From: Triglochin maritima
Lineage: Eukaryota > Streptophyta > Magnoliopsida > Alismatales > Juncaginaceae
Assembly (NCBI GenBank): GCA_963682175.1
Contig: OY821775.1
Span: 10,326,501 to 10,390,500 of the forward strand
DNA length: 64,000 bases
Reading direction: 5' to 3'
The position numbers were made by a program, and so were the translations under genes. Under the pieces are notes generated by a model. It had not been told where the DNA came from. It searched no databases and saw only the letters and a program-made list of their open reading frames with translations. Shown piece by piece: positions 8,096 through 33,830 of this stretch. Each line of letters opens with the position of its first letter. Position 1 is the first letter of the stretch.

Positions 8096-8481
8096 CGGTC
8101 GACCGGAAGGCGTTCGGTCGACCGGATGTGTGTTGTAATTGGTCCAGCAAAAGTGTCTGTCCATTTTCGGTCGACCGGAATCTAGGATTCGGTTGACCGG
8201 ACACACAATAAGAGCTGGGCAAAAGTTATTGTCGATTTTCGGTTGACCGGAATCTAGGATTCGGTCGACCGGGAACGTTCGAGGAGCTGTGGGAAAAGTG
8301 TCTGTTGATTTTCGGTCGACCGGAACTTAAGTGTACAGTCGACCGAGTATGCACTCGAGCAAGCCAGAAAAGTTACTGTCGTTTTTCAGTCGACCGATAC
8401 TCCAATTTCGGTCGACCGGTAAAAGTTGGTTCGCGATACAGTTATTGGATCGGTCGACTGAAGCACCCATTCGGTCGACCG
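8096..8481. repeat. Array of 12 palindromic CGGT-NN-ACCG boxes (element A, 5' LTR)
   Basis: Boxes start at 8096, 8115, 8168, 8190, 8240, 8262, 8313, 8336, 8387, 8409, 8451 and 8472, each 10 bases. Seven are exactly CGGTCGACCG and two are CGGTTGACCG. The boxes at 8336 and 8387 are CAGTCGACCG and that at 8451 is CGGTCGACTG. All five variants are single transitions at a CpG relative to CGGTCGACCG. Spacing is irregular, often alternating about 20 and 50 bases. The array ends 76 bases before the TATA box. Confidence 0.9.
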
Positions 8482-8557
8482 TTTGGACCCAATTCTGCCC
8501 ACGTATTGCAAATTACTCCACCCGATTTTGGTGCAACTTATACTTGTTTTGGCCTCA

Positions 8558-8565
8558 TATATAAA
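8558..8565 (+). promoter_or_regulatory. TATA box of element A 5' LTR
   Basis: TATATAAA lies downstream of the palindrome array and upstream of the presumed R region of the LTR, as expected for the retrotransposon promoter. Confidence 0.6.
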
Positions 8566-8917
8566 GAAAATTTCCGTCCCCTTTGTAATAGAGAACAATT
8601 AGATTGTTTTGATTGTCCACTTTTGCATTCTTGTGAGAAAAGAGAGAGAGCATCCTTGTGATTTGGTGGGAGAATTTTGAGCTGGGTGTTTCATGGGTTC
8701 GTTCGCGTCTCATGTAAGCATCTCTTGTAATACGTTTCTCTATAATGGATTTGGAGTTGTGTCGTCTGTGGTTTTTCCCGCATTGGGTTTCCACGTTAAT
8801 CTTGCGTGTTTTGTGTGATTTGGATTTTGGATTTGCGTTTTGTTCTCAAGTTTAGCCAATTGGATTTGTTATTTCTGTTCCGCTGCGTATTTGAGATTGG
8901 TTTTAATTCCTAACAAC

Positions 8918-8929
8918 TGGTATCAGAGC
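8918..8929 (+). other. Primer binding site, initiator Met tRNA type
   Basis: TGGTATCAGAGC follows the 5' LTR by two bases and is the classic plant copia primer binding site complementary to the 3' end of initiator-Met tRNA. The same motif follows the 5' LTR of element B. Confidence 0.9.
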
Positions 8930-10629
8930 ATTTGGTCCGAATTTTGGGGATTTTTCATCGATATTTTGTCAAGTACTCATGGCGAATCATTGGAAGATTG
9001 AGAAGTTGAGCCGAGATGTGAATTTCGCCTTGTGGCAAGTCAAGATGCACGCAATCCTGGTGCAGCAAGAGGTGGATGACGTTCTTGAGGGCATGGACAA
9101 GTTGCCAAAGGAAATGTCCGATCAAGATAGGCAAAAGCCTTATCGAAAGGCGATGTCAACAATTAAGTTATCGTTGTCTGACGAAGTTCTGAGAGAAGTG
9201 TTGAAGGAGAAGACGGCTGCAAGTATGTGGAAGAAATTAGAGGAAGTCTACATGAAGAAGTCACTTGCGAGCCGGATTATCTTGAAGAAGAAGTTATTCC
9301 TATTCAAGATGAAGTCGGGTATCTCCCTTCAGCAACACTTGAATGATTTCAATGCAATCATCATGGACTTGGAGAAGGTTGAAGCAAGGTTTTCTGATGA
9401 GGATCAGGCGATCCTTTTACTTTGCTCGTTGAGTTCTTCATATGATCACTTCGTGGAGACGATGATGTACAGCAGGACCGACATCTCTCCAAATCTGATA
9501 TGGAGAAGAGGTCTGATGGTTCTGAGTTGAGCAAAAGTGAATCACTTGTTGCTCGTGGTAAAGGGGAAAGAGAGGAGTTTCTCAAAGAACACCTCTAAGG
9601 CCAAGTCGAAGGACAAAGATATTATTTGTCATTAATGCAAGAAGAAGGGTCACAAGATATCAGAATGTTTTAAGCTACAGAACAGAGAGAAGCAGAGGGG
9701 TTCTAGTAGTGGTGATCAGTCAGGTTCGAATGTTGTGGAGTCCGATTCTGATTTTGTGTTGGCAGCTACAGGTTCTTCTGAAGCTTCCGACGGTTGGGTG
9801 ATTGACACGGGCAGTACATTCCACTTAACTCCGAATAAACATTGGTTTTCATCTTATGAAACAATGTCAGGTGGAATGGTTGTGATGGGCAATGGTGACA
9901 GGTGCGAGGTTGCAGGAATTTGTTCAGTCAGATTGAGGACCCATGATGGCCTAGTCAAGATTTTATCGGATGTGCGACATGTTCCGAAGGCGAGCAAGAA
10001 TCTGATTTCAGTAGGTAGCCTGACTGCAAAGGGTTACAAATTAAGTGGTGATGATGACTGCATATCCATCACCAAAGGATCACTTATTCTGATGAAAGGG
10101 AATAAGCTTGGGCCCGACAAGCTTTATATGCTTAAAGGAGAAACTGTTGTGGGTGACACAGTTGTTGTAGGATTTCATGTTTAATTATACATATATATTT
10201 TTCGAATTTTCATGTATAATAAGGATCTATTACAATTTTCTTCGATTTATTTATGCATGCATCGGTTTGTTTTAACAACTAGTTTCAAAAACTTATTAAA
10301 ACAAACACAAAGGGACTCCGAAATTCATACCTAGAAGTTCTAAAAAACTTCTTGACGTTTCAGAGACGTTGAGGAAGTCAATCTTCGCTTCTCGTTGCGC
10401 CGGATGCCTCCGAGTGTTCACCGAAACCCTAAACAAGGTTGGAGAGAAAGGAGCTAGCCAATCGATCTCCAAACAAGCTTAGAATCTAGCTACAAACCCC
10501 TTCCTTAGCCTCTGAGATTTCTCCTTCCAAAGACTTAGAAAACTAAGAAAATTTTCGTGGGTTTTTGTGGTGAATTAAGAGAGAAAATAATTATTGAATT
10601 GTGTAACCCAATTAGGGAGAATAAGGACC

Positions 10630-10637
10630 TATTTATA
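10630..10637 (-). promoter_or_regulatory. TATA box of nested solo LTR (minus strand)
   Basis: The minus strand reads CCTATAAATAGGTCC here, a strong TATA context. It lies about 180 bases downstream of the palindrome array when read on the minus strand. Confidence 0.55.
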
Positions 10638-10820
10638 GGTTCCAATCTTACTCTTAATCATGGCTATTCTTTAGCCACGTTTTTCTTTACATTTTCTCTC
10701 ATAAATTAATTCCTTAATGTATTACATGCACCCACAAAACGTTTGACCAAGTTTGGAGCTAATCCAACCATCGATCAAATTAATCTCTTAATAATCAAAG
10801 GCAGAAAATCAATCGTTGTT

Positions 10821-11134
10821 CGGTTGACCGAGACCCATTCGGTTAACCGAATATGTCACGATTGGTTGACCGAGTACTAGACGGATGACCGATTCTTAAA
10901 GGGAAAAATTCTCCTTAACCGATCGGACGAATTTTCGTCTAAGACCGAGTGCCATTCGGTTAACCGAAAATATCGGAACTTAAAATTATTCGGTCGACCG
11001 ATTTTGGTTCGGTACACCGTACCAAAGTTCCAGGCACTTTGGTCAAGTTCAGTCAATCAAATATGACTATCCGTTCCATGTTCGGTTGACCGATCCACAG
11101 ATCCTTCGGTCGACCGAACCTCAACGGATTACCG
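10821..11134. repeat. Array of 10 palindromic boxes in the nested solo LTR
   Basis: Boxes start at 10821, 10840, 10863, 10882, 10957, 10991, 11010, 11083, 11107 and 11125. Seven fit CGGT-NN-ACCG exactly, with centres TG, TA, TA, CG, AC, TG and CG; the others (TGGTTGACCG, CGGATGACCG, CGGATTACCG) differ at one base. Apart from the boxes this LTR shows no evident similarity to the LTR of the element it sits in. Confidence 0.85.
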
Positions 11135-14100
11135 AACTTTTACCCGATTTTGCCTTTTTCAAATTTTGGATTTATTTTCAACAAAATTTGAACTTGAGGG
11201 GGTTTTAGCAAATTCACAACTTATGCAATATATTATCCTATGCAACAATAAATTATTGTACCCCATAATATATGCATCTCATATGAATTTATCATGATTC
11301 TAATTATGTTATATATAACATAATTTATTTTACTTGTTCACCACATGTGTCATATTTTCTATAAGAAACCTGACACATCATATGAACCAAAAATCAAGCT
11401 TCTTGTTTCTCGGTTTCTTGCGGTGTGACCTATGGGAGGATCTATACTAAGTTAGCAGTGATATTAAGAGCTTAATATCACAAGCTATAAGCGGTATCTA
11501 GCTACACATTATAGCTCCCAATTAGTTAGATGTCTTAATTCCACTCGAACCAAAACCCGATCCATTTAGTGATGGAGTGCACCACTTGTGTCCGTCCCTT
11601 GCCTCATGATATTAAGAATACACACAAAGTAGTATTGTGTCATCTTTGTATTAGTATTCATTTCTTGATCTCTTTAAGCTAGTTATAAATATGTGACTTA
11701 ACTCAAATCACATTGTGCACATTATAACTTTGCTTTATCAAGGGGCCCACTAATATCATCACTCAATTAAGAGGGGCAATGATAATCTTTTGACTAACTA
11801 TCTTCTCCAACAAAAGTTGTACTTAACCAACTAATGCCTTTACACTACACTGATCGATAGTTCAAGACACTGATCTAATTAAGTATTCCTTAAGTGATTA
11901 GATATAAGTCTCATATCAAAGGACCAAAGACACAGTAAAATATTAATGACACAGAAACACATTTCTATAATATTTTACTTATTAGGTATATTCAGTATAC
12001 AAAAGTAATATTTTCCTCTTTTGCATACCCGTGTTGTCACTCACTTGTAGAGCTACAATGATCTATGACCAACACGACAATCTTAACTCGGTAATTAATG
12101 TTCCATGTTAATTACCATGATTGCGAATATCTTTTGTTTTATGTAAACCAATATCTTTTAGAGCTCTACGGTTAAGGACCAAGAGCATCTTCCTTAACAC
12201 TTCTAAAAGACGAATAACATAAACAAGGAACAAAATGATTTCTCATTCAATTCATAATAATTGACATTTAAAAGTAAAACTTTTAGAACACATTCCCTTC
12301 AGTTGTAGCGTCATCGTTGTCTGGTGAGGAGAATGCCCAACTTTGGCATATGAGGTTGGGGCACATGAGCGAGAAAGGCATGGCAGTGTTGAACAAACGT
12401 GGTTTGTTTGGAAGTCAGAAAATAGGCAGTCTGGACTTCTGTGAATTTTGTGTTTTGGGGAAGCAGAAGAGGGTTAGCTTCTCAGCAGCTAAGCACACCA
12501 CCAGTGTCACTTTAGATCATGTCCACTCTGATTTATGGGGACCTTCTCAGGTTCCATCAAAAGGTGGAGCTCGCTACATGCTCACATTTATTGATGATTT
12601 CTCCAGGAAGACTTGTGTTTATATTCTGAAACAAAAGAATGACGTGTTTCATAATTTTCAGCACTGGAAGGTTATGATTGAGAATCAAACAAGAAATAAG
12701 ATTAAGGTTCTTAGGACGGATAATGGTTTGGAGTTTTGTTCCTCAGAGTTTAACGATTTCTGCAAAGATGAAGGAATCGTGGGACACCGAACCGTACGTC
12801 ACACACCACAACAGAACAGAGTAGCGGAACGTCTGAATCGAATTCTCTTGGAGAGAGCTAGATGTATGCTTCTGAATGCTGACCAGACTAAGGATTTTTG
12901 GGCAGAAGCAGTGTATACCGCTTGTTATTTAGTGAACCGTTCGCCTCACACCATTTTGGATATGAGAACACCGGAAGAAGTTTGGACAGGTGGAGCTTCA
13001 GATTTGTCCAAGTTGAGAGTCTTCGGTTGTCCAGCGTACGCACATGTAGATCAAGGAAAATTGAATGCTCGGTCGTTGAAGTGTATATTCCTTGGCTACG
13101 ATTTGGGTGTGAAGGGTTATCGTCTGTGGTGCAAGGAATCTCAGAAGCTCATGGTTGAAAGAAATGTTGTCTTTAATGATCTTGCTATGTTACCTTCCAG
13201 GAAAGACACTGTTATTTCTACTCCCGTGTCAAGTGGGACTCCAACTCAGGTGGAGCCACCGGTAGTGACTGCTGATGAGGATACCAGTGTGACACAAGGA
13301 GAGAGTTCGAAATCTGAAGAAGATGAAGAGTATTTGTTGGCAAGGGACAGAGAGAGGCGGCTGACCAAGAAACCCCGTAGATATGCCGAATCAGTCCTTG
13401 CATATGCTCTTAGTGCAACTGAAGATATTGGAGCCTCTGGTGAGCCGAGCAAGTATTCAGAGGCAATTTCGGCACCCGATTCAGCTGCTTGGGTGGGTGC
13501 AATGAATGAAGAGATGTTGTCTCTTCATAAGAACCAAACTTGGAAGCTGGTAGAACTTCCAAAAGAAAAATGGCCGTTAGCTGCAAATGTGTCTTCAAGA
13601 AGAAAATCGAGGGTCTCTTAGATGTGAGGTACAAAGCTCGATTGGTTGCTCGTGGTTTTAGTCAGGTGGAGGTGTGGATTATAGCGATATTTTCTCACCC
13701 GTTGTGAAGCATACTTCTATTCGTGTCTTGTTGAGTTTGGTTGCAATTCATGATTTAGAGTTAGAGCAACTAGATGTGAAGACCGCTTCCTACATGAAGA
13801 ATTAGAGGAGCAAATTTACATGTCCCAGCCGTAGGGCTTTGTGGTCGAGGGTAAGGAGAATCAGTTCTGTTTGCTGAAGAAGTCGCTTTATTGGTTAAAG
13901 CAGTCGCTTCGACAATGGTATAAAAGATTTAATTCTTTTATGGTTGGACATGGGTACGACAGGTCCAGTATGACTGCTGCGTTTACCGAAATGTATTTTC
14001 AGATGATTCTCTTGTTTTGTTATTACTCTATGTAGATGATATGTTGATAACAGCTAAGGACAAGTCTAAAATTTCTGAGCTTAAGGAGTTGTTAAAGGCT

Positions 14101-15075
14101 GAGTTCGAGATGAAGGATCTCGGATCAGCAAAGAGGATTCTAGGTATGGAGATACGTCGCGATCGTACATGCAAGAGCTTGTTTCTCTCCCAGCAGCAAT
14201 ATTTTGAGAAAGTCTTTCATCGTTTTGGCATGGAAAATGCCAAGTCTGAAAGAATTCCTCTCGCTGCGCATTTTAAGCTCTCGGTAGACTTGTGTCCCAA
14301 GAAGGAGGAGGATAAGGCATACATGTCACATATGCCTTATACTAATGCAGTTGGCAGCTTAATGTATGCTATGATATGCACTCGTCCAGATATAGCTCAG
14401 GCGGTCAGTGTGGTGAGCCGTTATATGTCGAATCCAGGAAAGGAGCATTGGTCAGCTGTGAAGTGGATTCTCCAGTATCTAAAATGTACAACTAAGCTAT
14501 CTCTGAAATTTGGTCGATCTTTGTATTCGTTAATGGGGTTTGTTGATGCCGATTACGCGGGAGACCGTGATAGACGAAGATCTATGACTGGTTATGTGTT
14601 TACTGTTGGGAGCACGACTATTAGCTGGAAAGCGACGTTGCAACACACTGTTGCTTTGTCTACAACGGAGGCAGAGTATATGACAGCGACCAAGGTTATT
14701 AAGGAAGCTCTTTGGCTGAAATGTTTATTTGGAGAGCTTATTCCAGGTCAGAATACAGTGGTTGTTTATTGTGATAGTCAGAGTGTCATTCATCTACGAA
14801 GGATCAGATGTATCACGAGAGGACGAAGCATATCGACGTCCGTTATAACTTCATTTGGGAAATTGTTGCTGAAGGAGGTGTGGTGGTGAAGAATGTGGGC
14901 ACTGAAGATAATCTGGCTGATATGTTGACGAAGCAAGTTATTTCGACTAAGTTCATGGTATGCGTGAGCTTGGTTGGTTTGAGTTCCGAGTAGGTGGAGC
15001 TAAGACGACGACACAATGAGGAAGGAAGTGTTCCTTCAAAGATTTACAAGGGCTATTCAAGGTAAAGGTGGATAT

Positions 15076-15927
15076 TGTTGTTGTTTACCTTGAATATGTG
15101 TTTAAAGTATTCGTGAAGGAAAACAGACATTCGGTCGACCGGAAGGCGTTCGGTCGACCGGATGTGTGTTGTAATTGGTCCAGCAAAATTGTTTGTCCAT
15201 TTTCGGTCGACCGGAATATAGGATTCGGTCGACCGGGCACACAATAGAGCCGAGCAAAAGTTACTGTCGATTTTCGGTCGACCGGAATCTAGGATTCGGT
15301 CGACCGGGAACGTTCGAGGAGCTGGGGGAAAAGTGTCTGTTGATTTTTGGTCGCTGGAACTTAAGTGTACGGTCGACCGAGTATGCACTCGAGCAAGCCA
15401 GAAAAGTTACTGTCGTTTTTCGGTCGACCGGTAAAAGCTGGTTCGCGATACAGTTATTGGATTGGTGGACCGAAGCACCCGTTCGGTCGACCGTTTGGAC
15501 CCAGTTCTGCCCACGTTTTGCACATTACTCCACCCGATTTTGGTGCAACTTATACTTGTTTTGACCTCATATATAAAAGCAATTTTCACCCCCTTTGTAA
15601 TAGAGAACAATTAGATTGTTTTGAATGTCAACTTTTGCATTCTTGAGAGAAAAGAGAGAGAGAACATCCTTGTGATTCGGTGGGAGAATTTTGAACCGGG
15701 TGTTTCGTGGGTTCGTTCGCGTCTCCTGTAAGCATCTCTTGTAATACGTTTCTCTATAGTGAATTTGGAGTTGTGTCGTCCGTGGTTTTTCCCGCATTGG
15801 GTTTCCACGTTAATCTTGCGTGTTTTGTGTGATTTGGATTTTGGATTTGCGTTTTGTTCTCAAGTTTAGCCAATTGGATTTGTTATTTCTGTTCCGCTGC
15901 GTATTTGGGATTTGTTTTAATTCCTAA
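15076..15927 (+). repeat. 3' LTR of copia element A
   Basis: Starts TGTTGTTGTTTACC after the purine-containing stretch AAGGTGGATAT and ends near TTCCTAA. Relative to the 5' LTR it lacks a 24-base segment, which removes one palindrome box by apparent recombination between two neighbouring boxes, and it has a disrupted box at about 15347-15355. Nine boxes are exactly CGGTCGACCG, starting at 15132, 15151, 15204, 15226, 15275, 15297, 15370, 15421 and 15484. Confidence 0.9.
15132..15493. repeat. Palindromic box array, element A 3' LTR
   Basis: Nine perfect CGGTCGACCG boxes plus one degenerate (TGGTGGACCG at 15463) and one destroyed box. The five boxes altered by CpG transitions in the 5' LTR are intact, deleted or changed in a different way here, so the ancestral unit was CGGTCGACCG. 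Confidence 0.88.
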
Positions 15928-16464
15928 GAGCACAATCCAAAGTTCATATTCCTCGACAAGTAAAAAAAATCAATATGAAGAAATTGCAAAGAACTCAACT
16001 GAACTTGGACAAACATGATTTACACACTTTCTGCCCATTTTCACGAGAATTGCTTTCATTGAGAGTAAAATAAAAGACCATTGCTTGCATTGTCATGTTA
16101 TTTATGCAAATTATATGATGAAATAACTTTACAAATTTACCATCAATACTTATCAAATAAAAAATGTTTGAGTTAAAAGTTGCAAGGGTGCTAATAGCAT
16201 GTTGTGCCAATGCCCTGGATCAGACAGTAAAAACAGCTACTAACTTGCAAACCTAATATAGGCATTACAAAATTAGCATATGGGAAGTTCTAGTGCAGTA
16301 TATGGTACAATACACTAATAAGTACATTGTGAAAAAAAACACAACAAATATGTGCATAAGAAACAAAGTAATGCTGTGGAAATTTGAAAAACAGATCTCC
16401 TGAGTACCTACACAGATATCCTTCTGTCGAGACTAGAGACTCACTATCTGTGTCACTATCACTT
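15928..16464. other. Spacer between element A and the PPR gene 3' end
   Basis: AT-rich sequence with no supported gene. The part next to 16465 would include the PPR 3' untranslated region. Confidence 0.4.
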
Positions 16465-18489
16465 TCAGGAATTTCTTCTTTTACGGACAAACTCGGCCTC
16501 TTCTATCTTCCCTTCCTTCCGAAGTCCAATTTCCACATCTTCCAAAGAATGAGAAACAGTGTGACCTCTTCCTGTCTCATTGAGCTCGTAGAACAATTTG
16601 AAGGCCTCGTCTACTCTCTTGATCTGACAAAACCCATGAATAGCAGCAGCATAAATTTCTCCTGGCAGATTTGGGTGCTTCTCCAAGCTAAGAATAAGCA
16701 AATCTCGAGCCTCGAAAAAATTTCGATCGTCACAAAGAGATATGATTAACTTCTCCATCTCCAAACAGTAGCCACTCTCGTAGAGAAGATGGGTGATCTC
16801 AAGTCCTCTACTGTGCAGTCCATCCTTGTAAAGACCAATCACAGTAGCCGTCGATAGTTTAATGTCCTGCAGAACTTTCCTTTCCAGCATCAATGCAATC
16901 AAATCGCCCGCTTTTCTTGCTCCACAGCCAGAGTCCAACAACCAAGCAAGCACCGAATGGAAGGTTGTGGTCTTAGGACGGTATCCATTGTTAAGCATTT
17001 TCTCAAAAACCTTCCAAGCAAATTCCATCTCGCCAGTCGCTCGAAATCCATCAAACAATGCTTGAAACGTCTCTTCATCTGGAACAAGATTTCTTCTCAA
17101 CATAGAAATTAAAATATCATACCCATCCCGAAATGCACTTTCTCGGCAATGCCCCAGTATCAACGTCTTAAACGATGCCCAATCCACAATGCCCTTGCTC
17201 AAAAGCAATGCAAACACAACATCTGCCTTTCCCGTCTTCCCATTCTGGCAAAGGTACTCAAAGATTGGATTATATGCGGCCATGATAGGTTTAGAACCAC
17301 CTCTCCTTAGCAAAACCCGTCTTTCAACCAAGTCATCCAACAACTTCTCAGCGACCTCATAATCTCCTTCACCACATAACGCACGAACAAGCACACTATA
17401 AGACGCTGAATCAGGCTTCAACTTCAACTTCGGCATCTTGTCAAACACCTTCAAAGCATCATCAACCCTCCCTTCCCTGCAATGAGCATTAATCAAAGTA
17501 TTAAAAGTGCACACATCCGGTCTGAATCCCCTTTCCTCTCCTCCCGAGGAAACACCCTCGAACATCTCCATCGCCCTTCCGATCTCTCCCGCCTCACAAA
17601 GACCATGAATAATCGTATTATACGTAACATCGTTCGGCTTCACGCCCTCCTCCACCATCTCCCTGAACAACCCCAGCGCATCCTCAACACATCCCTTTGC
17701 GCAAAACACTCGTATCAAGGTCGTATAAGTCACCACATTGGGCCTCACCTCCTTCCGCTTCATCCCCTCAAAAAATTTCACCGCAACCGAAACCTTCCCG
17801 GCCCGGCAGACCCCATCGAGAAGAGTATTATACGTCTGCACATCCGGCCGAACACCGAACCCCTCCATCTTCCGAAAGTACCGGAACGCCTGCGGAAGCC
17901 CTCCAGTCAAGCAGAACCCCCTGATCATAGTATTAAAAGTGCACAAATCCGGTGATATTCTCGAACCTTCGGCGGTCATTTCGTCGAACAGGTTAGCGGC
18001 GGCGACGGTGCGTCCACGAGAGAAGAAGGCAGCCAAAAGAGAATTGTAGGAGAAAACGGACGGAGGCACGCCGAAGGCGGACTTCATCTCCCGGAAGAGA
18101 CGGACGGAGGATCTGATCTGGCCGTGGAGGGCGTGGGCGCGGAGGAGGAGGTTGAAGAAGCGGTCGTGGAGGAGGAGGAGGGAGTCGTGGGGAGGGGAGG
18201 AGTGGAGGGAGAGAAGGAAGCGGCGGGCGAGGGGGAGGTGGTGGGGGTTGCGGGTGAGGACGCGGAGCATGACGTAGTGAAGGGCGTCGTCGAGGGGGAG
18301 GTGGCGGCGGCACCAGAGGAAGAAGCGGAAGGCGGTGGTGGGGGAGGGGATGCGAGGGAGCGCGTGGAGGACGGCGGAGCGAGTGAGGTGAGGGATGAGC
18401 GGGGTGAGGTCGGTGGGTATGGTTGGGGTGGAGAGGAGGTGGAGGATTTTACGGGTCAGCTCGCGATTGGGGTTCATGCACACGGACAT
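16465..18489 (-). CDS. P-class pentatricopeptide repeat (PPR) protein
   Basis: An intact intronless frame of 674 residues, typical of plant PPR genes. At least eleven 35-residue PPR motifs can be read, for example VFSYNSLLAAFF (about residue 145), PDLCTFNTMIRGFC (about 181), RPDVQTYNTLLDGVCRAGKV (about 216), RPNVVTYTTLIRVFCAKG (about 251), KPNDVTYNTIIHGLCEAGEI, RPDVCTFNTLINAHCREGRV and KPDSASYSVLVRALCGEGDY. No E, E+ or DYW tail is present, so it is P-class; such proteins bind organellar RNA and act in its stability, splicing or translation (family knowledge). The N-terminus is rich in R, L, H, S and P and lacks acidic residues over its first 30 positions, compatible with an organelle transit peptide. 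It reminds me of the At1g02060 type, from memory only. The first Met at 18489 is used; a second Met four codons on is also possible. The 5' third is strongly GC-rich. Confidence 0.92.
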   Translation of the reverse strand: MSVCMNPNRELTRKILHLLSTPTIPTDLTPLIPHLTRSAVLHALPRIPSPTTAFRFFLWCRRHLPLDDALHYVMLRVLTRNPHHLPLARRFLLSLHSSPPHDSLLLLHDRFFNLLLRAHALHGQIRSSVRLFREMKSAFGVPPSVFSYNSLLAAFFSRGRTVAAANLFDEMTAEGSRISPDLCTFNTMIRGFCLTGGLPQAFRYFRKMEGFGVRPDVQTYNTLLDGVCRAGKVSVAVKFFEGMKRKEVRPNVVTYTTLIRVFCAKGCVEDALGLFREMVEEGVKPNDVTYNTIIHGLCEAGEIGRAMEMFEGVSSGGEERGFRPDVCTFNTLINAHCREGRVDDALKVFDKMPKLKLKPDSASYSVLVRALCGEGDYEVAEKLLDDLVERRVLLRRGGSKPIMAAYNPIFEYLCQNGKTGKADVVFALLLSKGIVDWASFKTLILGHCRESAFRDGYDILISMLRRNLVPDEETFQALFDGFRATGEMEFAWKVFEKMLNNGYRPKTTTFHSVLAWLLDSGCGARKAGDLIALMLERKVLQDIKLSTATVIGLYKDGLHSRGLEITHLLYESGYCLEMEKLIISLCDDRNFFEARDLLILSLEKHPNLPGEIYAAAIHGFCQIKRVDEAFKLFYELNETGRGHTVSHSLEDVEIGLRKEGKIEEAEFVRKRRNS

Positions 18490-18850: not shown

Positions 18851-18853
18851 TTA

Positions 18854-22862: not shown

Positions 22863-23794
22863 CGCGTTATCGCCTACTCAGGTGGTCTGCGAATTAATAA
22901 TTTAAGTTGATGTGTGAAATAATTCAGGATTCAGCAACGAAATATTACTATAGTGTGGGCATTAATGTAGTGTTGAATGGCTAAAACCTTGTGGTACTTT
23001 AGACTCTTTAGATACTACATTACCGAAATGTGTAACAGGTCGAGCTGTTAAATGTTGAAAGAGCCCAAAATTTGCGACCAGAAAGAAATGATTGAGCAAA
23101 AAGGGGAGTTCATTTTCGTTCATGATGAATCAGTTTCTACTCATTTTCGCCTTTCTCGACGCTTTCCGATTAGAAGAGTTTTACACAACGCGGGAGGATT
23201 AAAGAAGAAGAAAATCAAGAGAGATTTGTGTGTAATCAAATTTAACACACTTGGTGTTTAGTAGTATGTTTGTATGGACTGATGACAAACTAAATTCAAG
23301 GAGAACCAAACTTATAATGAAATAAGACAGCCATGGAGGAAACAAAATGTTCATGGAGAGGTGGGGTTTAAACAAGGGAAATTGTTATTATATGGTTCTA
23401 GAAACGACAATTTTTTATCATAAGAAAACTACAAATTTTCTTTAAAAAACGGTAACTGAGTTCGATAAATTAATACTTGGAAAATGGTATATGGTTGCCT
23501 ACTTGCTAACATATCACGTAATTTTTTCTCGAAATAACGCATCAGTAAGTTGTCGTTCGGTAAATGATCCTCATTAGATAACGCAATTGGTTCTTCGGAA
23601 TACTCATTGTTAAGAAACAAAACATTGTAACTATTGTAGTGGACAAAAAAAGACTTTTTTAAAGTAAGTTAAACATTGTAATTTTTTTTTACTTATTTGA
23701 AGCATTATGTTGTATATGCATTCTGAAGATTTTGTCTGATGTTGATAAGAAAGTACAATACACTTCGTGCAAGAGAAGTATTTCGGGTAATATT
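22863..23794. other. Intergenic region before element B
   Basis: No supported gene. Its last bases ATATT (23790-23794) are the left target duplication of copia element B. Confidence 0.5.
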
Positions 23795-23842
23795 TGTTGA
23801 ATATTGACTTATCTTTGTTAAGGAATCAAATCCAAGAAGAGT

Positions 23843-24298
23843 CGGTCGACCGGATTGGATTCGGTCTACCGACACACAACCCAGGAAATTTTCGGCGAAG
23901 ACGGGTCGGTCTACCGAATTGGATTCGGTACACCGAACCGAGGATTCCAGGCACTTCGTATGTAGCTGGGATCGGACGACCGAATTGGATTCGGTCTACC
24001 GTCAGAAGGTTTCAAGCACTTCGGAACAACGGTTTCGGTAAACCGTTGAGGAGATTTTTGGTGTTCCGAGAATCTGGAAAGTGCCTGTCCAAGTTGGCAC
24101 GGATCACCGAGGGGCACTCGGTCAACCGGAGGGTTGTTAGAAGATTCGTTAGTTCGTGGAAGAATCGTTCTCGCGGTCCACCGAGACGCGCAAGAATCGT
24201 TCCCTCGGTCAACCGGGAAGGATTCGGTTAACCGAATCGGACCAGGAATCGTTCCTGTTGAAGCAGTCACGGTTAACCGAACGAGCATCGGTTAACCG
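23843..24298. repeat. Array of 14 palindromic boxes (element B, 5' LTR)
   Basis: Boxes start at 23843, 23862, 23907, 23926, 23973, 23992, 24036, 24100, 24119, 24174, 24206, 24225, 24270 and 24289. Twelve fit CGGT-NN-ACCG exactly; the two at 23973 and 24100 have CGGA as left half. The central dinucleotides are CG, CT, CT, AC, CG, CT, AA, TC, CA, CC, CA, TA, TA and TA, so half-sites and spacing are kept while the centre varies. Many boxes come in pairs 19 bases apart. The array ends 56 bases before the TATA box. Confidence 0.9.
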
Positions 24299-24354
24299 TG
24301 TCCCCATGAATAGTTCTATTCGGTTTTGCTTAATTGTAGCTCGGTTTTTGAGTC

Positions 24355-24361
24355 TATAAAA
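24355..24361 (+). promoter_or_regulatory. TATA box of element B 5' LTR
   Basis: TATAAAA in the context AGTCTATAAAAGG. The 3' LTR carries the same box at about 29394-29400. Confidence 0.7.
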
Positions 24362-24772
24362 GGACTTGTTTGTTCTTCAATGTAACACACGAAAATTATC
24401 AATAGTTTCCTTCATTGTGAGTTGAGAGATTAAGGCTAGAGATAGATCTAGAGTGCTTTGGGAGACACATTGCTTCCAATCATTTGTAATCTCTGTTGCT
24501 TCTCTTGTTGGAGAAAGCGGAAGAAGGAAAGGAAACCCACAGGAGACCCCCCAAGGACGTAGGCATGTTGCCGAACCTTGTAAATCACGTGTGTCGTGGT
24601 TGTTTCAGGTGTGCATTTGTCTTTGCTTGTTTTATATCCATCTTATTAGTGTTCTTGTTGCAATTGAGTTTGGGAGAGGGTCCGAAGTTAATTCCGCATT
24701 CAATATTCGATTTATTCGTGGTGCGTGTAATCCGTGTCGTGTTAGTGCATATTAGATCCCCCTCCCAATAGC

Positions 24773-24784
24773 TGGTATCAGAGC
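24773..24784 (+). other. Primer binding site of element B
   Basis: TGGTATCAGAGC begins two bases after the 5' LTR and is of the initiator-Met tRNA type. Confidence 0.9.
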
Positions 24785-24799
24785 CAGGTTGCACTTACG

Positions 24800-27700
24800 A
24801 TGGCGGAGGAAGGGCGGAATTTTCGGGTGGAGAAATTCACCGGGAAAGGGAACTTCTCAGCGTGGCAACGGAGGGTTCGTGCGTTGATGTCTCAAACGGA
24901 CGGGCTATTGCTGACGTTGGATGGGGTTGAGAAGAAGTCGTCGAAGATGACCGACGAAAAGTGGGAGAGTCTGAATCTCCGGGCTATTGGAATCATCGAG
25001 TTGTGCCTCTCGGATGATTTGCTTTTCGAGGAATCGGCGAAGACCGCGGCAGAATATTGGAAACTTCTGGAGGAGAGGTTCATGAAGAAGAGCCTTAGCA
25101 ACAAGTTGAATCTGAAGCGTCAGCTGTACATGCTTCGGATGAAGGAGAACACGCCGTTCATTGAGCATCTCTCGGTGTTCAATAAGTTGATAGCTGATCT
25201 GACTCAGCTTGAGGACAAGATGGAGGATTTAGACAAGGCAATGTTGTTATTGACGTCGCTGCCGGACTCGTATGAGAATTTGGTGAATACGATCATATAT
25301 GACAAGGATTCGTTGGTGTTGGAGGAGGTCAAGGGCACGCTGATCTCCTACAATGCAAGAAAGAATTCGAGTAGTAACTCTTTCGAGAAGGGTGAAGGAT
25401 TGATCGCAGCACCGGAAAGGGACAGGACGGGTAACAAAGGAAGAAACAACGGTAAAGGGCGGTCCAAATCAAAGGGGATATCCTTTGAATGTTTTTCTGC
25501 AAGAAGGTTGGTCATATGAAGCGTGATTGTAGGGCCTTCAAGGAGTCGCTGCAGAAAGGGAAAGACGGGTACAACTCCGCTAGCGTGGTGGAGGAGAAGA
25601 ACGAAGTCGACGTTCTAACGGCTTGCGCTGCAGGTATTGATAAATCATCATCTGGATGGATTTTGGATACAGGAGCATCTTTTCACATGTGCCCGGATAA
25701 GGAGTGGTTCACATCCTATGAACCACTGAAAGGAGGGATCGTTGTTATGGGCAACGATGCACCGTGCACTACCGTCGGTATTGGTTCCGTACAGTTCAAG
25801 ATGTTCGATGGGTGCATTCGAACGCTGACGGGTGTGCGTCGCGTACCGGAGTTGAAGAAGAATCTGATATCTCTAGGAGAGCTTGATACTCTCGGGTGGA
25901 GATGGTCCGGCGGGGACGGAAAGATCAAGGTCACTCATGGGGCGATGACAGTGATAAAGGGAACCAAGGTGGGCAACTTGTATTGGATGCTCGGGAATGT
26001 AGTAGCAGGAAAAGGTGCAGCAAATGTTGCACGCGACGAAGACAGCACCGCACTTTGGCATATGAGGCTTGGTTATATGTCGGAAAAGGGTTTGTGTGAG
26101 CTACACAAACAGGGATTGTTGAAGGGTGTTAAGAGCTGCAAATTGGATTTTTGCAAGTATTGTGTCTTCGGTAAACAACACATGATTCGATTCAAGACGG
26201 CTATCCACAAGACGAAGGAAATTCTGGAATATGTGCACTCAGACGTCTGGGGACCGGCTCAGGTTCGGTCAAAGGGTGGAGCCGAATATTTCGTCACATT
26301 CATAGACGACTTCTCAAGGAAGGTATGAGTTTATTTTCTGAAAAATAAATTTGATGTCTTTGATAAGTTTAAAGCATGGAAGGCCCAAGTAGAGAAAAGT
26401 ACAGGAAAATTTGTTAAGTACTTACGGACAGATAATGGAGGTGAGTACACCTCAAGGGAGTTTGCAAGTTTCTGTGAGAAAGAAAGCGTCACGAGGCATT
26501 TCACTACACCGCGGAGTCCGGAACAAAACGGCGTAGCTGAAAGGATGAACAGAACACTATGCGAACGGGCAAGGAGCATGAGGCTTCATGCAAATCTGTC
26601 AAAGGATTTCTGGGCGGAAGCAGTAGATCTTGCTTGCTACTTGGTAAATATCTCACCGTCTTCAGCACTTGAATTAAAGACGCCTCAGGAAGTGTAGACA
26701 GGTGAGCAATTTGATTACTCGAGGCTTAGGATATTTGGATGCAAAGCCTATGCGTTGGTCGATGAGACACAACGGTCGAAGCTGGATTCGAAATCGAAGG
26801 AGTGCATATTCCTTGGTTACGATAGGACGGTGAAAGGATATAAGCTTTGGGATCCGGTGAGCAAGAAGGTACTCCTACGGAGTAATGTGGTCTTTGATGA
26901 GACGAGTTTGCTCAAGGGCCTTGAGGAGAAAGAGCAGCAAGAGGTTCCCATGCAGGAAGAGGAAATTGAAGATGGGGTCACGACTTCAAGGGAAGAATCG
27001 AATCAAGAAGTTCAGCAAGAAACAATGGACTCACGAGTAGAGGAGGAAGCTGAGCAAGAGAGTATTGCTCAAGGAAGACAGAGGAGGATCACAAAGGCAC
27101 CGGTGAGGTATGGTCACGATGATGCTAGTATTGCGTTTGCACTTGTTACCAAATGTGGGGACCCTTGCACATTCGAAGAAGCTATTGAGCAGGAGGACAG
27201 GAACAAGTGGATGGTGGCCATGACCGAAGAGATGGAGTCTCTTCATAAGAATCAAACTTGGGAGTTAACGGAGCTTCCCAAGGGAAAGCGCGTGATTGGG
27301 TGCAAGTGGATCTTCAGGAAGAAGGAAGGGTCTTCTCCTATGGAGGAGATAAAATATAAAGCAAGGTTGGTGGTAAAAGGATATGCTCAGAAGGAAGGGG
27401 TCGATTACAACGAGATCTTCTCACCCGTTGTAAAGCATACCTCTATTAGAGTGTTGTTAGCTATGGTAGCTATGAACAACATGGAGTTAGAGCAGATGGA
27501 CGTGAAGACAACTATTCTTCACGGGCACATAGAGGAAGAAATCTATATGAGGCAGCCGGATGGGTTCATCACACAAGGCAAGGAAGGACAAGTATGCAAA
27601 CTGAAGAAGTCCCTCTATGGACTTAAGCAATCGCCGAGGCAGTGGTACAAAAGGTTCGATTTATTTATGATTAATAATGATTTTGTACGTTGCGATTATG

Positions 27701-28728
27701 ATAGTTGTGTATACTTGCGGAGTCTTGGAGACGGCACACACGTCTTCTTGCTTTTGTATGTTGATGATATGTTGATCGCGGCTAAGGAGATGAAGCATAT
27801 AGATGATCTCAAACTGAAGCTTCACGGAGAGTTTGAGATGAAAGACCTCGGGAGTGCAAAGAAGATTGTCGGTATGGAAATCTCCAGGAATACCGAGAGA
27901 GGTGAAATTCTGCTCACTCAAAGGAGTTATATCCGGAAGATACTCGAGAGGTACAATCTCGAGAACGCCAAGCAGGTGGCCACACCTATTAGTGCTCACT
28001 TCAAGCTCTCGTTGAAGTGCAGCCCCTCTACTGAAAAGGAAAGGAGAGATATGGAGAGAGTTCCATATGCTAGTGCAGTCGGATCCGTTATGTATGCTAT
28101 GATCTGCACTAGGCCAGACATTTCACACGCAGTTAGCCTCGTGAGTCGTTACATGGCTAACCCAGGAAAAGAGCATTGGGAAGCGTTGAAGTGGCTGCTG
28201 AGGTACCTGAAGGGAACCATGGATGTTAGCTTGAAGTTCACCAAAGATGGAGCACAAAGGCAGGTGGAGGGGTACGTCGATTCAGATTACGCTGGAGATC
28301 TGGATAAATGGAGGTCCACAACAGGGTACGTGTTCACTTTGGGTGGAGGTCCAGTAAGTTGGAGATCGGTTCTCCAACATACTACCGCGTTGTCTACAAC
28401 GAAAGCAGAGTACATGGCTGTTGTCGATGTCGGAAAAGAAGCTATATGGTTGAAGGGTTTGGTTAGCTCTTTGGGGATGGAACAGGAAGTGACCAAATTG
28501 CATTGCGATAGTCAAAGTGCAATTTATCTAGCCAAGGATCAGACGTTTCATTCAAGGACCAAACATATTGAAGTAAGGTACCATAGGATCCGAGAGTGGA
28601 TCGAAGAAGGGCAGGTTGTTCTCCAGAAAATCGACACGAGTGAGAATCCTGCAGATATGATGAATAAGGTCGTCAATCGGGAGAAGTTCGAGTTGTGCTC
28701 GAAGCTTCTCAATGTCCTCAGAGAGTGA
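24800..28728 (+). pseudogene. gag-pol of copia element B, three inactivating lesions
   Basis: Gag starts at 24800 (MAEEGRNFRVEKFTGKGNFS). A one-base loss in the T run near 25491-25495 shifts the frame inside the CCHC zinc knuckle; protease to RNase H then lie in one frame. Protease active site DTGA is near 25666, the pre-integrase motif LWHMRLGYMSEKG near 26053, and integrase HSDVWGP near 26238. Stops TGA at 26326-26328 and TAG at 26695-26697 both stand where tryptophan is usual (RKVW, EVWTG) and are G-to-A changes. RT with LLLYVDDML is near 27750-27780. RNase H has lysine (AAA 28402-28404) in the usual STTEAEY motif, replacing a conserved acidic residue. Long integrase-C, RT and RNase H frame 26755-28728 is otherwise open. 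A programmed frameshift is an alternative for the first lesion but is not needed. Confidence 0.93.
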
Positions 28729-28832
28729 GAAGGAGGGCGCTCCAGGGGTAGCATCAAGCGGTGTCTCATGAAGACACGAATGATGCAGGTTAAAGGGAGA
28801 CTCAGGTAACAAATCTAAACCAATGTGGAGAT

Positions 28833-29808
28833 TGTTGAATATTGGCTTATATTTGTTAAGGAAGCAAATCCAAGAAGAGTCGGTCGACCGGATTGGATTC
28901 GGTCTACCGACACACAACCCAGGAAATTTTCGACGAAGACGGGTCGGTCTACCGAATTGGATTCGGTACACGGAACCGAGGATTCCAGGCACTTCGTATG
29001 CAGCTGGGATCGGACGACCGAATTGGATTCGGTCTACCGTAAGAAGGTTTCAAGCACTTCGGAACAACGGTTTCGGTAAACTGTTGAGGAGATTTTTGGT
29101 ATTCCGAGAATCTGGAAAGTGCCTGTCCAAGTTGGCACGGATCACCGAGGGGCACTCGGTCAACCGGAGGGTTGTTAGAAGATTCGTTAGTTCGTGGAAG
29201 AATCGTTCTCGCGGTCCACCGAGACGCGCAAGAATCGTTCCCTCGGTCAACCGGGAAGGATTCGGTTAACCGAATCGGACCAGGAATCGTTCCTGTTGAA
29301 GCAGTCACGGTTAACCGAACGAGCATCGGTTAACCGTGTCCCCATGAATAGTTCTATTCGGTTTTGCTTAATTGTAGCTCGGTTTTTTGAGTCTATAAAA
29401 GGGCGTGTTTGCTCTTCAATGTAACACACGAAAATTATCAATAGTTTCCTTCATTGTGAGTTGAGAGATTAAGGCTAGAGATAGATCTAGAGTGCTTTGG
29501 GAGACACATTGCTTCCAATCATTTGTAATCTCGGTTGCTTCTGTTGTTGGAGAAAGCGGAAGAAGGATAGGAAACCCGCAGGAGACCCCCCAAGGACGTA
29601 GGCATGTTGCCGAACCTTGTAAATCACGTGTGTCGTGGTTGTTTCAGGTGTGCATTTGTCTTTGCTTGTTTTATATCCATCTTATTAGTGTTCTTGTTGC
29701 AATTGAGTTTGGGAGAGGGTCCGAAGTTAATTCCGCATTCAATATTCGATTTATTCGTGGTGCGTGTAATCCGTGTCGTGTTAGTGCATATTAGATCCCC
29801 TCCCAACA
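28833..29808 (+). repeat. 3' LTR of copia element B
   Basis: Begins TGTTGAATATTG and ends CTCCCAACA, followed by target duplication ATATT. It carries the same box array as the 5' LTR at 28881-29336; the box near 28964 has decayed to CGGTACACGG and that near 29074 to CGGTAAACTG. Confidence 0.95.
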
Positions 29809-29813
29809 ATATT

Positions 29814-31643
29814 CGGCTAAACGATCAACTAGTCTATACTAAAAGTAGAGAAATAATCACTTGACTGATTGAATCGAAACATCACATGCAAAATTACGTT
29901 CCGTAATGGACCCCGAGAGGCTTACGCTCGCTTTCAACGCTAAATTCACGATATCCCATTGGACGTGCTCAGGAGATCGGAGGTTTTGGATCATTCTCTA
30001 CCCCCACATTCATTATTTTTTTATTGTTGTCAAAGTTTCTTTGCAAATGATATTGTTTGTTCTTAATATGTTACATTTCTTAAAAAAAAAACTCATTTTT
30101 TTAAAATCAAGTATTTAAAGATCCACAAAAGGTTTCTCAAAGATGTAAGTATAGATTTAGAATTTTCTCACAAAACAGATCAGTTTGGGTATTACTTTCG
30201 TTATATTTCGATCACTTTTTATTTTGATCATTTTTCTATATAAAGTGTGTGCAATAACTTCATAATGAACGATTAGGATTCTTGCATGCATGATGTGGAT
30301 AAAAGATAATGTTAAAATTGCACGTCCATTTATAACCAGGTAATCACATTTGAAACATAATGAGCCTTCTTTCTTTGGTAACTCATCTGAGCCATCGTCT
30401 CTACAAGTTTGCAAATGTTAATTTAATATTATAAAGGACAGTAACCCAATTTGAATTTGAATTAGTATTACTAACCTAATTCTTCAACATGCATGCGTGT
30501 TTTACATGTTTACTAACTTATTTCTCGGAAATATTTTACATGTTTTTCTTAATGGAAACACAATTTTACAAGCCATTATAAATGATTTGTTAATTTACTT
30601 CCCAATTCCTACCAACCAAAGCCTTCAATTTTGACATCTCTTCTTACATAAACTCTTGGATGCCAAAAGAAAAGTTATAACTTTTAATAATTTGGTGGGA
30701 AAGATTAACGATTTTCATCAAATTTGACCAACAAGAATTAACAAAGAAGCATAACGCAAAGACGAAAGATATGATCTATAGGTAAGATGAGGACTCTTTG
30801 AAAGGTGAGTACATAGAGAAATGATTTATACTAAAAAAATACTTACTATAAAAAATATTAAAAGAATATTTTGCAAAGACAACTTTCCATAAAATATATA
30901 TACAGGAAAACTCGTGTTCTGAACCCCCACGATATTACTAAAACGTCAAATCAGTAGTTTGTGAGTTTTGTCAACAAAAATGACAGGCAGATTAGTCGTG
31001 GACTATAAAGCAAAGTGGGGTCTTGATATATGGTAGTTAATTCACCTTATATGGTTTTCAATCCAAATAATTGAGTTATCTGAAGATACGAAATTTGTGA
31101 TCATTGTCTTTTATTAATCGCGTGATATCGATGGAGTACTTACAAATTGATAAATAACGTTGTGGCTGGTCCAGAATTATCAGGGAATAGCTCGAAATAC
31201 ACATTTAGGTCAGCTATTACCGGGTAATAGTTTCCATTATACAATTAGGTACGTAACTACTTTTCACCAGCCTGTAATCCGCCACTGTTGCAACAAATTA
31301 ATAACCAAAAGTCCATACATAAAAATTAAATAATGAGCAGTAAACTACCAAGTTAGGTGGAGCGACTGATGCTTGTGGGTGTTACAGTAATTAATATAAT
31401 AGAGACTATCATTTTATTTTAGATACTTTCGAATTATTAAAGTGAAGCAAGGGAAGCTCGTGGGTTTTAAGTAATACATGCAATACATATTTTCATTTTA
31501 TTCTAGACTAGATACTTTCGAATAATTAAAATTTTCAACTATATTTTCATGTTGAAGCTTATTTTAAGCATTTAGAACATTCTTGTAACCAAATGTTGAA
31601 TTGAAGATTTTAGAGAACTTCATATCGAGCCCCATACAACAGG
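29814..31643. other. Intergenic AT-rich region
   Basis: 1.8 kb without recognisable coding, RNA or repeat structure; short open frames look like chance. Confidence 0.5.
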
Positions 31644-31648
31644 TTGAC

Positions 31649-33830
31649 TGTAAGAACCCAAACCCTTGTTAGGGTTAAGCTTGGGTTAATGGAGGATTAG
31701 AAGGTGTTTAGCATGGGAAGTTGGAGTGCATAGTGCATGCATGGGGAAGAGGTGGAGGCGCGCTACAGTGGTCGTGGTTGAGGGGATGGGTTTGGAAGTG
31801 TAGGGCACTGTTCACGCGTGGGGAGAAGATTTGAGTTGGGTTTATAAACGTTTTCTTCTCTCTCTCTCTCTCATTATCTCTCCATTCACCCTCACTCTCT
31901 TCTTGTTCTTTTTCGCCGACCGAGCAGAGGAGGAGACCGGAGATCGCGCGGCGTGAGGCGTGCGGAGTTGAGCGCGCGGGGAGATCACCGGAGGCGACGT
32001 GCGCGAGCGGAGCTCCGGCATTTTCGTCGTTTCTTTTGAGGTATGCCGCTCTCTAGTGTGGTTTTGTTGTTGACACTCATGAGAGGGTCGTGTTGGTCGG
32101 TCGGAGGAGGTCGGAGGCCTCTCCGACGTCGCGTTTTGGCGAAGAAACCTCGGCTGGCGCGAGGTTGAAGACGACCGGACGGTCGACCGGCCCTTGGGCG
32201 GTCGACCGATTGCATGTATATCTTTACTGCCTGTTGCGTTTCGGTCGACCGAGGCCTTGTGTTCGGTCGACCGGAACTTAAGTTTATTGGTTTATATTGC
32301 ATGATGTTCGGACGTAGGCTTGAGTTCGGTCGACCGTTATATGACGTAGAAATATAGGTTGACCCTAACTGTTATCGGTCGACCGAGACCCCTGAGTCGG
32401 TCGACCGATGGATTAAAGATTGAAGATGAGGTACTGTTAGTTTTCGGTCGACCGGGACCCCTGAGTCGGTCGACCGATAGAATGTTTGTAATGTTGACCA
32501 GACTCCGGATTTTGACCTCGTTTGGTCGACCGGTTTTAGACCTCGGTAGACCGTTGGGGGGATTGTGTTCTGTGCGCAGCGGTAGACCGTGTTAGGGACG
32601 GTCGACCGATTCCTTTCTGGAAACGGTCGACCGAATCACCTCTTACGGCCGACCGTTTGGGCCCACAACAGAATTCCAGGTTCCCATTTTGAACGCCAAC
32701 TTTGTCCACGGAAACCCGTGTCCTCGCCTTGTGCGTGAGCCGGGAGGTGACGGTGGGCGCGTGATGCGTGCCTTCCCAGGGACCGCCGTTGGGAAGAGTG
32801 TGGGTGTTCGGGACGCGTCACCTCCATGTATGGACCGTGACTTTTGAGATGATGGTTGGCACTTTGTAGTATAGCAGGCCTGAGGGATCGCGGATCCCAG
32901 TGTTGATGTTGTGCGGGCACGCAACTGGCGTTGGGTGAGGTGACTACCGGCCCACGGGCTACGGAGGTCGCTGCCCTGCTTTTATAGCGGCGCGGTTGGT
33001 GTTCACGGCTCGAGGAGCCCGATGACCTGGCAGACTTCGGTCTGGACCCGTCCGATGTTGTGCCGGACGTTGTGATGGACCACCGATGCTGTGCCGGTGA
33101 TGCCGCCGAGGTTGTGCCGGCGATGATGATTGTTGGGCCGAGGCTGTGCCGGCTATGTTGTTTTCCTCGGCTGGGCACCTACCGAGATGATGTTGTTATA
33201 CCTTCCGGGCGACGGCCCCGTTGGTCCCTGTGGCCCCGACCACTGAGATTTACAGATCTGTTTCTATCGGCGCGTAGACGTGACAGAGGCTCCCTGCCGA
33301 ACCCTTGAGTAGTGTAGCCGCGTGTGGGGGGTGCGATGTCGTGGGCTGCTAGACTGCATGTGCCTGCAGTAGGTCTCTTCGGGAGACCCGATGATTGATT
33401 GTCGGACTGATGTCCTGTTTTACCCTTCGGGGGAAATGTTTTCCATTTCTGTTGATGCCATGACATGCTACTAGTATGATAGGTTCATTATGTGATGCAT
33501 GCATATAGGTGAGTTGGTATACGGGGTTTCCTTCTGGAAACTCAGGCATTGTTGTTGCATCTTTTTCAGGATCGCAGTAGGTCCGGGTGGGTGGTGACCG
33601 AGGACGGAGCGCTTTGGAGTCGGATCCTCTTCGGCAGTTGCTAGACCGTACGACTACTTGTATTATATTCCATTGTATCAGTATTGTAGTTGTATTTCTT
33701 TTGGAAAACTCCTTGTATTTTGGGTGCACCCGGATTTATATATTTATATATTAGTGACGTTCCTGCGTGAGTTGTCTGTTATGTTGGTTATTCTGAAATT
33801 TTAAATCTTCCGCTGTTTCGGGACGTTACA
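31649..33830 (+). mobile_element. Solo LTR, 2.2 kb, gypsy-like termini
   Basis: Runs from TGTAAGAACCC to GGGACGTTACA and is flanked by exact TTGAC duplications (31644-31648 and 33831-33835). TGTAA...TTACA ends are common in plant gypsy LTRs (family impression). There is no internal region. A TATAAA at 31843-31848 is followed by a CT microsatellite (about 31857-31873) and a C/T-rich leader-like stretch, which favours plus orientation; a minus-strand TATAAAA at 32980-32986 is an alternative. The interior carries 15 palindromic boxes. The second half is unusually GC-rich with many overlapping chance frames. Confidence 0.88.
32180..32655. repeat. Array of 15 palindromic boxes in the gypsy-like solo LTR
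   Basis: Boxes start at 32180, 32199, 32242, 32264, 32327, 32376, 32398, 32445, 32467, 32523, 32544, 32580, 32599, 32624 and 32646. Thirteen fit CGGT-NN-ACCG exactly (eleven with centre CG, two with AG); two differ by one base (TGGTCGACCG, CGGCCGACCG). Pairs are often 19-22 bases apart, as in the copia LTRs. Here the array lies downstream of the presumed TATA box in either orientation. Confidence 0.88.

Follow-up and report, generated by a model that had tools for sequence, protein, structure and literature searches.

Why do several long terminal repeats (LTRs), lying close together in one plant genome and differing in sequence, carry arrays of the same short palindrome? The question is raised by 64 kb of DNA from Triglochin maritima (contig OY821775.1, positions 10,326,501 to 10,390,500; this whole stretch is termed the window), where the box CGGT-NN-ACCG (CGGTNNACCG) is repeated in the LTRs of retrotransposons. 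We found box arrays to be common to unrelated LTR lineages, namely the copia clade of two elements termed A and B, a second copia family termed N, gypsy elements and, in decayed form, a Sirevirus-type element.

The window contains 63 exact boxes, close to the approximately 65 reported in an initial annotation of this DNA, while 100 dinucleotide shuffles gave a mean of 0.24 and a maximum of 2. All 63 fall into seven clusters, the one at 61.6 kb being located in an old stretch that resembles an LTR and the others in LTRs. When up to one mismatch was allowed, 80 of 89 sites were found inside the seven array regions (12, 10, 10, 14, 14, 15, and 5 sites), corresponding to 10–15 copies per LTR in A, N, B and the gypsy-like LTR termed S32, and five in the decayed set at 61 kb. 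The nine sites outside the arrays compare with 7.85 expected for the whole window from 20 Markov sequences. The initial annotation had proposed a genome-wide count as a check. This count gave 477,770 exact boxes in 1,063,122,952 bp (the window lies on contig C7), compared to 50,711 for the reversed pattern and approximately 16,000 expected by arithmetic at balanced composition. The reversed pattern served as genome-wide control both for the box and for pairs of neighbouring boxes, termed twins, whereas other centres (CGGTNNNACCG, CGGTNACCG) were compared in the window and in a sample. The sample consisted of 18 hand-placed 10-kb stretches from C1 and C3–C12 (177.5 kb without N) and held 90 exact boxes, with 83 of these in 10 arrays of at least three, spread over 8 of the 18 stretches.

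The pattern itself is strictly defined. Among all 256 dyads composed of four bases, two free bases and the reverse complement of the first four, the box ranked first in the sample with 90 copies, and the next CpG-bearing dyad had 12. CGG N4 CCG occurs 72 times in the window LTRs where 1.2 are expected, and other gaps from N2 to N8 give 0–4. The length of the centre is equally fixed: in the window LTRs there are 63 dyads with N2, none with N0, N1 or N3–N6, two with N7 and one with N8, and in the sample 90 with N2 and 1–8 for each other length from 0 to 8. In B and N the centre dinucleotide varies freely, and in A and S32 it is mostly CG. Within families, pairwise identity over the eight fixed positions was 0.64–1.00 (A, N, B, and S32). 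Boxes were chosen by match, and the informative part is therefore the near-random flanks, where identity within a family mostly was 0.2–0.5.

Neighbouring boxes are found at preferred distances. The five window arrays have 26 gaps of 18–24 bp compared to 8.8 expected (0/5000), with 13 of exactly 19 bp where 1.4 are expected. In 16 arrays of the sample, 55 of 140 gaps were 18–25 bp long (21.9 expected, 0/4000), with 11 at 19 bp, 24 at 22 bp, and none at 10–17 bp. For this count sites less than 10 bp apart were merged; unmerged, an overlapping near-box in stretch L029 yields gaps of 12 and 7. A satellite (L014) accounts for four of the 16 sets, and these have no gap of 18–25 bp. Genome-wide, 119,956 twins 19–22 bp apart were counted against 2,683 for the reversed control; the first 100 twins listed, all from C1, were spaced at 19 (27), 20 (7), 21 (15), or 22 bp (51). 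The spacing of 19 or 22 bp was not part of the initial annotation.

The LTRs that carry the arrays were then assigned to lineages. Element A (8041–15928, plus strand) is a Ty1/copia element with paired LTRs that are 92.3% identical; a clear target site duplication (TSD) was not found for it. The 5′ LTR (8041–8914) has a box array at 8096–8481 (nine exact boxes, 12 with up to one mismatch) with a TATATA downstream at 8558, and the 3′ LTR (15074–15928) has an array at 15132–15493 (nine and 10) with a TATATA at 15570. Between them are a primer binding site (PBS; TGGTATCAGAGC) at 8918, a gag fragment (8979–9527; PF14223, 1.1e-34), and integrase, reverse transcriptase (RT) and RNase H in broken frames at 12326–14886, with rve, SH3 and gag_pre-integrs at 12326–13618 and RVT_2 at 14017–14886. 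Array A also holds a 72-bp tandem unit in 2.5 copies. Element B (23797–29806, plus strand), likewise Ty1/copia, has an LTR pair with 98.2% identity and the TSD ATATT, its ends being placed by eye. The arrays lie at 23843–24298 in the 5′ LTR (23797–24770; 12 exact, 14 with up to one mismatch; TATAAA at 24355) and at 28881–29336 in the 3′ LTR (28835–29806; 10 and 14; TATAAA at 29394), and the broken frames in between (24800–28725) contain gag, a protease region, an integrase SH3 and RT (PF14223, PF22936, PF13976, PF25597, PF07727).

N is a solo LTR of 2.14 kb nested in A (10166–12301, minus strand, TG..CA, TSD GTTGT, ends by eye). Its array (10821–11134, minus strand) has seven exact boxes at 10821–11116 and 10 sites with up to one mismatch, with a TATAAA downstream at 10637 on the minus strand. 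In stretch L025 a gag-pol frame with copia domains is followed by a polypurine tract (PPT), AAGTGGGAGAT/TG, and then by an N-type LTR; because this gag-pol precedes the same LTR, N is read as Ty1/copia on the minus strand. Copia gag and RVT_2 are thus present in A, B and, for N, in L025. A and B share 55.7% identity across 262 RT and RNase H residues, while pol of L025 is 38–40% identical to A and B over the compared RT/RNase H region. In a tree of 77 sequences, N belonged to a group of 32 (support 1.0) that included neither A nor B, and these two belonged to another of 34 (support 0.987) that lacked N, although they were not closely joined to each other (0.17). On these sequences N is placed in another copia clade than A and B.

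S32 (31649–33830, plus strand, TSD TTGAC, ends by eye) is a solo LTR with an array at 32180–32655, containing 13 exact boxes (32180–32633) and 15 with up to one mismatch. It is classified by likeness as Ty3/gypsy-like: visual comparison showed its LTR end to be similar to the one of a gypsy element in stretch L026, where an S32-like LTR copy was also found (82% over 977 bp). In the L026 element the LTR is followed, on one strand, by PBS, gag (PF03732), RVP_2 and RVT_1, and this LTR itself carries an array with seven exact boxes. The decayed array at 61562–61836 (plus strand; three exact boxes at 61562–61740, five with up to one mismatch) lies in a stretch that aligned to A downstream of the array with a Smith-Waterman score of 57, the best of 30 shuffles being 51; this stretch probably represents an old LTR with a weak relationship to A. 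The view of the initial annotation that several unrelated families are involved was supported, with N corrected to a copia family read on the minus strand and S32 tied as gypsy-like to L026, but the 61-kb set, which is probably related to A, does not clearly add an independent family. Its statement that the LTRs are unrelated outside the boxes agreed with self-BLAST, where a single 51-bp stretch (N and B, 84%) was all that window LTRs from separate families had in common at 1e-5. With this single shared stretch, the window LTRs are not one family over their full length.

The Sirevirus status of A, B, and N was judged by PPT, size, and the AT/TG junction. The Sirevirus PPT octamer AGGGGGAG is absent from A and B (window copies occur only at 18230, 18293, and 18863) and was not present in L025. 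The junctions between internal end and 3′ LTR are AAGGTGGATAT/TG in A and AATGTGGAGAT/TG in B. An AT before the TG, as in the attachment site of Sireviruses, was found in A, B, and, for N, in L025, but classic elements vary at this position and the evidence is weak. A without its insert is 5.75 kb by arithmetic and B is 6.01 kb, both below the 8.45–14.4 kb of Sireviruses, which have a long linker or env; the N element, at about 9.6 kb as given by four cassette pairs 7.44–7.48 kb apart plus one LTR of 2.14 kb, is within that range. Among the elements checked (A, B, N, and L016) only L016 has the Sirevirus PPT signature, with four AGGGGGAG octamers and a AGGGGGAGAT/TG junction, which are the marks described for Sireviruses (Bousios et al., 2010; PMC2829016). 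Behind its PPT, and ahead of a TATA box assigned by eye, lies a decayed array that has one exact box, or three boxes when one mismatch is allowed. A Sirevirus RT was sought in stretches L030 and L031 and not found. Reversed upstream of the Sirevirus-type LTR L016, L030 contains at 1426–4677 a second N-like copia with a protein 66–75% identical to L025.

How can unrelated LTRs come to hold the same array? Family N offers one observation on this. In windows of 100 columns the LTRs of N and L025 are 0.91–1.00 identical to approximately 890 bp and 0.83 to approximately 1090 bp, then 0.49–0.57 to approximately 1840 bp, a part that comprises array and core promoter, and again 0.80–0.94 to the end. 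The differing cassettes of approximately 0.7 kb nevertheless contain seven exact boxes each. The array-plus-promoter cassette of N (10502–11212, minus strand) is unrelated to the sequence at the same place in the N-type LTRs of L025, L029 (five exact boxes), and L004 (eight), while L025 and L029 are similar throughout (0.71–0.98). From 4,032 first-look candidates, 40 genome places were scored for the N version at 98–100%, its own included, so that it represents an established subfamily and not a local accident. The cassette also contains the 51-bp stretch resembling the array of B, in inverted orientation relative to the N promoter. Most likely the N/L025 difference reflects an exchange of cassettes. 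Rapid divergence of the middle stretch alone was considered less likely, since both LTR ends remain similar. Convergence or exchange, the alternatives framed at the outset by the initial annotation, thus appears to be the right frame, with the N cassette pointing to exchange. Three same-strand N-type cassettes at C7:39211647, 39241415, and 39271204 are approximately 29.8 kb apart, suggesting tandem duplication of a 30-kb block.

We find it probable that the box serves as an enhancer element bound by a putative dimeric factor of the host, and that it has been maintained by selection and transferred from LTR to LTR. A host-factor site, also suggested by the initial annotation, seems the best reading of an 8-bp unit with mostly free flanks and, in N and B, a free centre. 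The two inverted ACCG half-sites with their free 2-bp centre would form a dyad bound by a dimeric host protein, and twins at 19 or 22 bp, approximately two helical turns, would place two dimers cooperatively on one face of the DNA. A cooperative dimeric protein is proposed because the 4-bp halves are fixed, the centre is free in sequence and strict in length, and twins are about two turns apart. The arrays of A, B, and N precede the TATA box by about 57–184 bp, and the copia arrays, like those of published Sirevirus LTRs, may act as enhancers of transcription. Activation is favored since an element would gain from an activator and not from a repressor, and the site is repeatedly held in several lineages. 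LTR lineages that recruit the factor would be expressed and copied, and this could explain why unrelated ones hold the same site. Boxes might be gained both by swapping of whole array-promoter cassettes between LTRs and by local turnover that retains the 8 bp and discards the remainder. More tentatively, and with rather less than even confidence, a large part of the LTR retrotransposons may draw on one and the same host factor, its dimeric site having been captured by two copia clades, a Sirevirus-type element and gypsy and being exchanged in the form of promoter cassettes; the approximately 478,000 putative binding sites in 1.06 Gb would exceed any plausible set of host target genes. Among W-box, MYB, DREB, TCP, and LBD sites, none is known to us that matches a free centre with fixed CGGT/ACCG.

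Some observations weigh against this reading. The arrays of S32 and L026 lie downstream of a recognizable TATA (TATAAA at 31843 in S32) or of a CT-rich stretch, and an upstream enhancer does not fit gypsy LTRs unless their promoter went unrecognized. Some flanks are conserved, with values of 0.83 for the two bases before the box in A, 0.80 for one base after it in N, and 0.62–0.64 for the first and the fourth base preceding it in B, and the site may in places be longer than 8 bp. Sister LTRs gave no sign of constraint on boxes after insertion: 3 of 79 box positions against 38 of 770 other positions had changed in A, and 2 of 96 against 14 of 875 in B. This is what would be expected for dead copies.

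The other explanations concern either the origin of the arrays or what they do. It is improbable that all arrays derive from one ancestral array in which only the boxes are still alike. Box flanks of A, N, B, and S32 gave a summed match over the six pairs of 68 compared to 54.5 for shuffles (0/300 on one strand, 222/300 on the opposite strand), and GAACTTAAGT is shared by A and S32 and TTCCAGGCACTT by N and B. However, 29 of 600 quartets drawn from real unrelated window segments attained the same sum, making the signal weak, and the shuffle counts for single pairs were 2, 5, 6, 20, 25, and 73 of 300. The 61-kb set did not stand out in any of its four pairs, the signal would be inverted in N with its promoter on the minus strand, and the LTRs of different families are otherwise unrelated. 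A broader flank homology between families, clear against shuffles but weak against real segments, is not claimed. Amplification without function, in which short-unit tandem duplication multiplied one sequence in LTRs that spread by the success of their families, could draw on the 72-bp unit in array A, but the sequence between boxes is mostly unrepeated, as seen from the low flank identity, and the same 8 bp and twin spacing occur in unrelated families; we regard it as very improbable indeed.

Two further proposals assign the arrays a role in silencing, and both appear unlikely. The box could be a site for a host repressor or silencing mark, or a chromatin boundary, by which LTRs are recognized. 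One site common to many families would benefit the host, and four arrays are CpG-rich with an observed/expected ratio of 1.44–1.78 (0.91 in the decayed array, 0.63–1.00 in the remainder of these LTRs). CpG decay was not the main source of imperfect boxes, as CpG transitions accounted for 23 of 65 one-mismatch boxes when L014 was left out. With such a site, elements without boxes should escape and take over; instead, N-type cassettes differ and the boxes are kept. Alternatively, the arrays could act as RNA, with hairpins of paired boxes feeding small-RNA silencing and boxes persisting for their structure. The arrays of A, B, N, and S32 do fold far better than shuffles (z of -7.5, -5.4, -6.1, and -9.4), and palindromes of maize Sireviruses are described as small-RNA hotspots in the accessible text of two reports (PMC5311732, PMC10760457). 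Strong folding is expected from any array of a single palindrome, though, and an element would have no benefit from amplifying a silencing target in several lineages. Selection for a twin hairpin should leave centres that pair with each other. Complementary centres were present in 10 of 26 twins over five arrays, nearly all of them CG/CG, but among the variable centres of N and B in only 1 of 12 twins, and this non-complementarity weakens the hairpin proposal. Binding of an activating host factor is the reading retained here.

Other repeats and genes were seen in passing. At 53919–54946 the window has a tandem array of a 22-bp unit in approximately 38 copies; the unit has a CGGT half-site and a CTGT motif resembling the stretch that precedes boxes in A, and its period is the same as the most frequent distance between twins. 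At 7076–7156, approximately 0.9 kb from A, there are three perfect copies of a 27-bp unit with ACACGTGT. The segments 34822–36826 and 44378–46079 are diverged direct copies of an unassigned repeat, 70–77% identical over three pieces, and have no exact boxes. The satellite in L014 (3600–7600) has regularly spaced one-mismatch boxes (95, 85, 135, and 146 bp) and no exact boxes. In stretch L013, at 2757–6022, the start of a copia gag-pol and a box array are separated by frames that encode a FAR1 domain and a SWIM finger and may represent a Mutator-like insertion. A scan of viral contigs for three-box arrays returned three stretches; these were rejected, as their open reading frames looked phage-like by eye and not like those of retrotransposons. 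The Es2 protein encoded at 2309–3730 has best database matches of approximately 62% identity, and a tree with 120 matches placed it in a group of eight including proteins from Colocasia, Anthurium, and Wolffia (support 0.95). By this placement the host is probably a monocot close to the alismatids, and no near relative was among these matches. Plant copia polyproteins carry the name "secreted RxLR effector protein" in public records (Trifolium repens), a misnaming, and one such polyprotein record is placed in Salmonella enterica, probably through contamination.

Short cis-elements in copia LTR promoters are a familiar feature. Tto1 reportedly has one of 13 bp, and we know of no sequence match between the box and the Tto1 or Tnt1 BII elements. 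The BII boxes of Tnt1 bind defence-induced factors (PMC3316501). Each of these belongs to one family, and sharing across superfamilies was not seen in the accessible text. Maize Sireviruses carry arrays of the palindrome CACCGGACNNNGTCCGGTG in the cis-region of their LTRs, which are described as highly variable and cis-regulatory, and the motif also occurs in structured regions of Helitrons (PMC10760457, PMC5311732). In the parts of these reports available to us, the maize palindromes are longer, differ in sequence, belong to one host and are not reported for gypsy LTRs.

The closest system is that of the palindromic repeated motifs (RM) of Sireviruses. The accessible part of PMC2829016 describes RM for 21 Sireviruses, of which 13 have the motif and 12 of these 13 a CGG-CCG core; the boxes, at least eight per element, are arranged in arrays that lie ahead of the TATA box and form CpG islands; RM are there called Sirevirus-specific and absent from a classic copia set of 30 elements. 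The RM of a grapevine (Vitis) Sirevirus is CGGTCGACCG in 12 copies (Table 3). This is the very 10-mer found here, and the belief of the initial annotation that the box was undescribed did not hold. Among the matches listed, PMC2829016 was the one source found for the box in LTRs, and these matches, with most subscription journals outside the search, held no earlier statement on other lineages, on a spacing rule or on a cassette difference; neither twin spacing nor cassette exchange was seen in the accessible part of PMC2829016. RM and the window box are alike in CGG-CCG core, copy number, and CpG richness, and the arrays of A, B, N, and L016 have the same TATA-proximal placement as RM whereas those of S32 and L026 have not. 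The hosts of RM in that source are Sireviruses only, whereas two other copia clades and gypsy share the box here in one genome.

The kind of motif is thus known, and what is new is its presence in non-Sirevirus copia and in gypsy LTRs, its genome-wide number, the spacing of the twins, and the differing cassettes. A motif that had been described as restricted to a single retrotransposon genus is thereby extended to further copia clades as well as gypsy, and has a measurable grammar of eight fixed bases, a 2-bp centre, and twins at 19 or 22 bp. How unrelated selfish elements share one control switch, by convergence or by exchange, becomes testable, and the box is a ready bait for naming the host protein. 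Half a million sites facing one transcription factor would be an unusual regulatory situation for the host. In comparison to the Sirevirus-bound RM, the box in Triglochin maritima belongs to several retrotransposon lineages at once.

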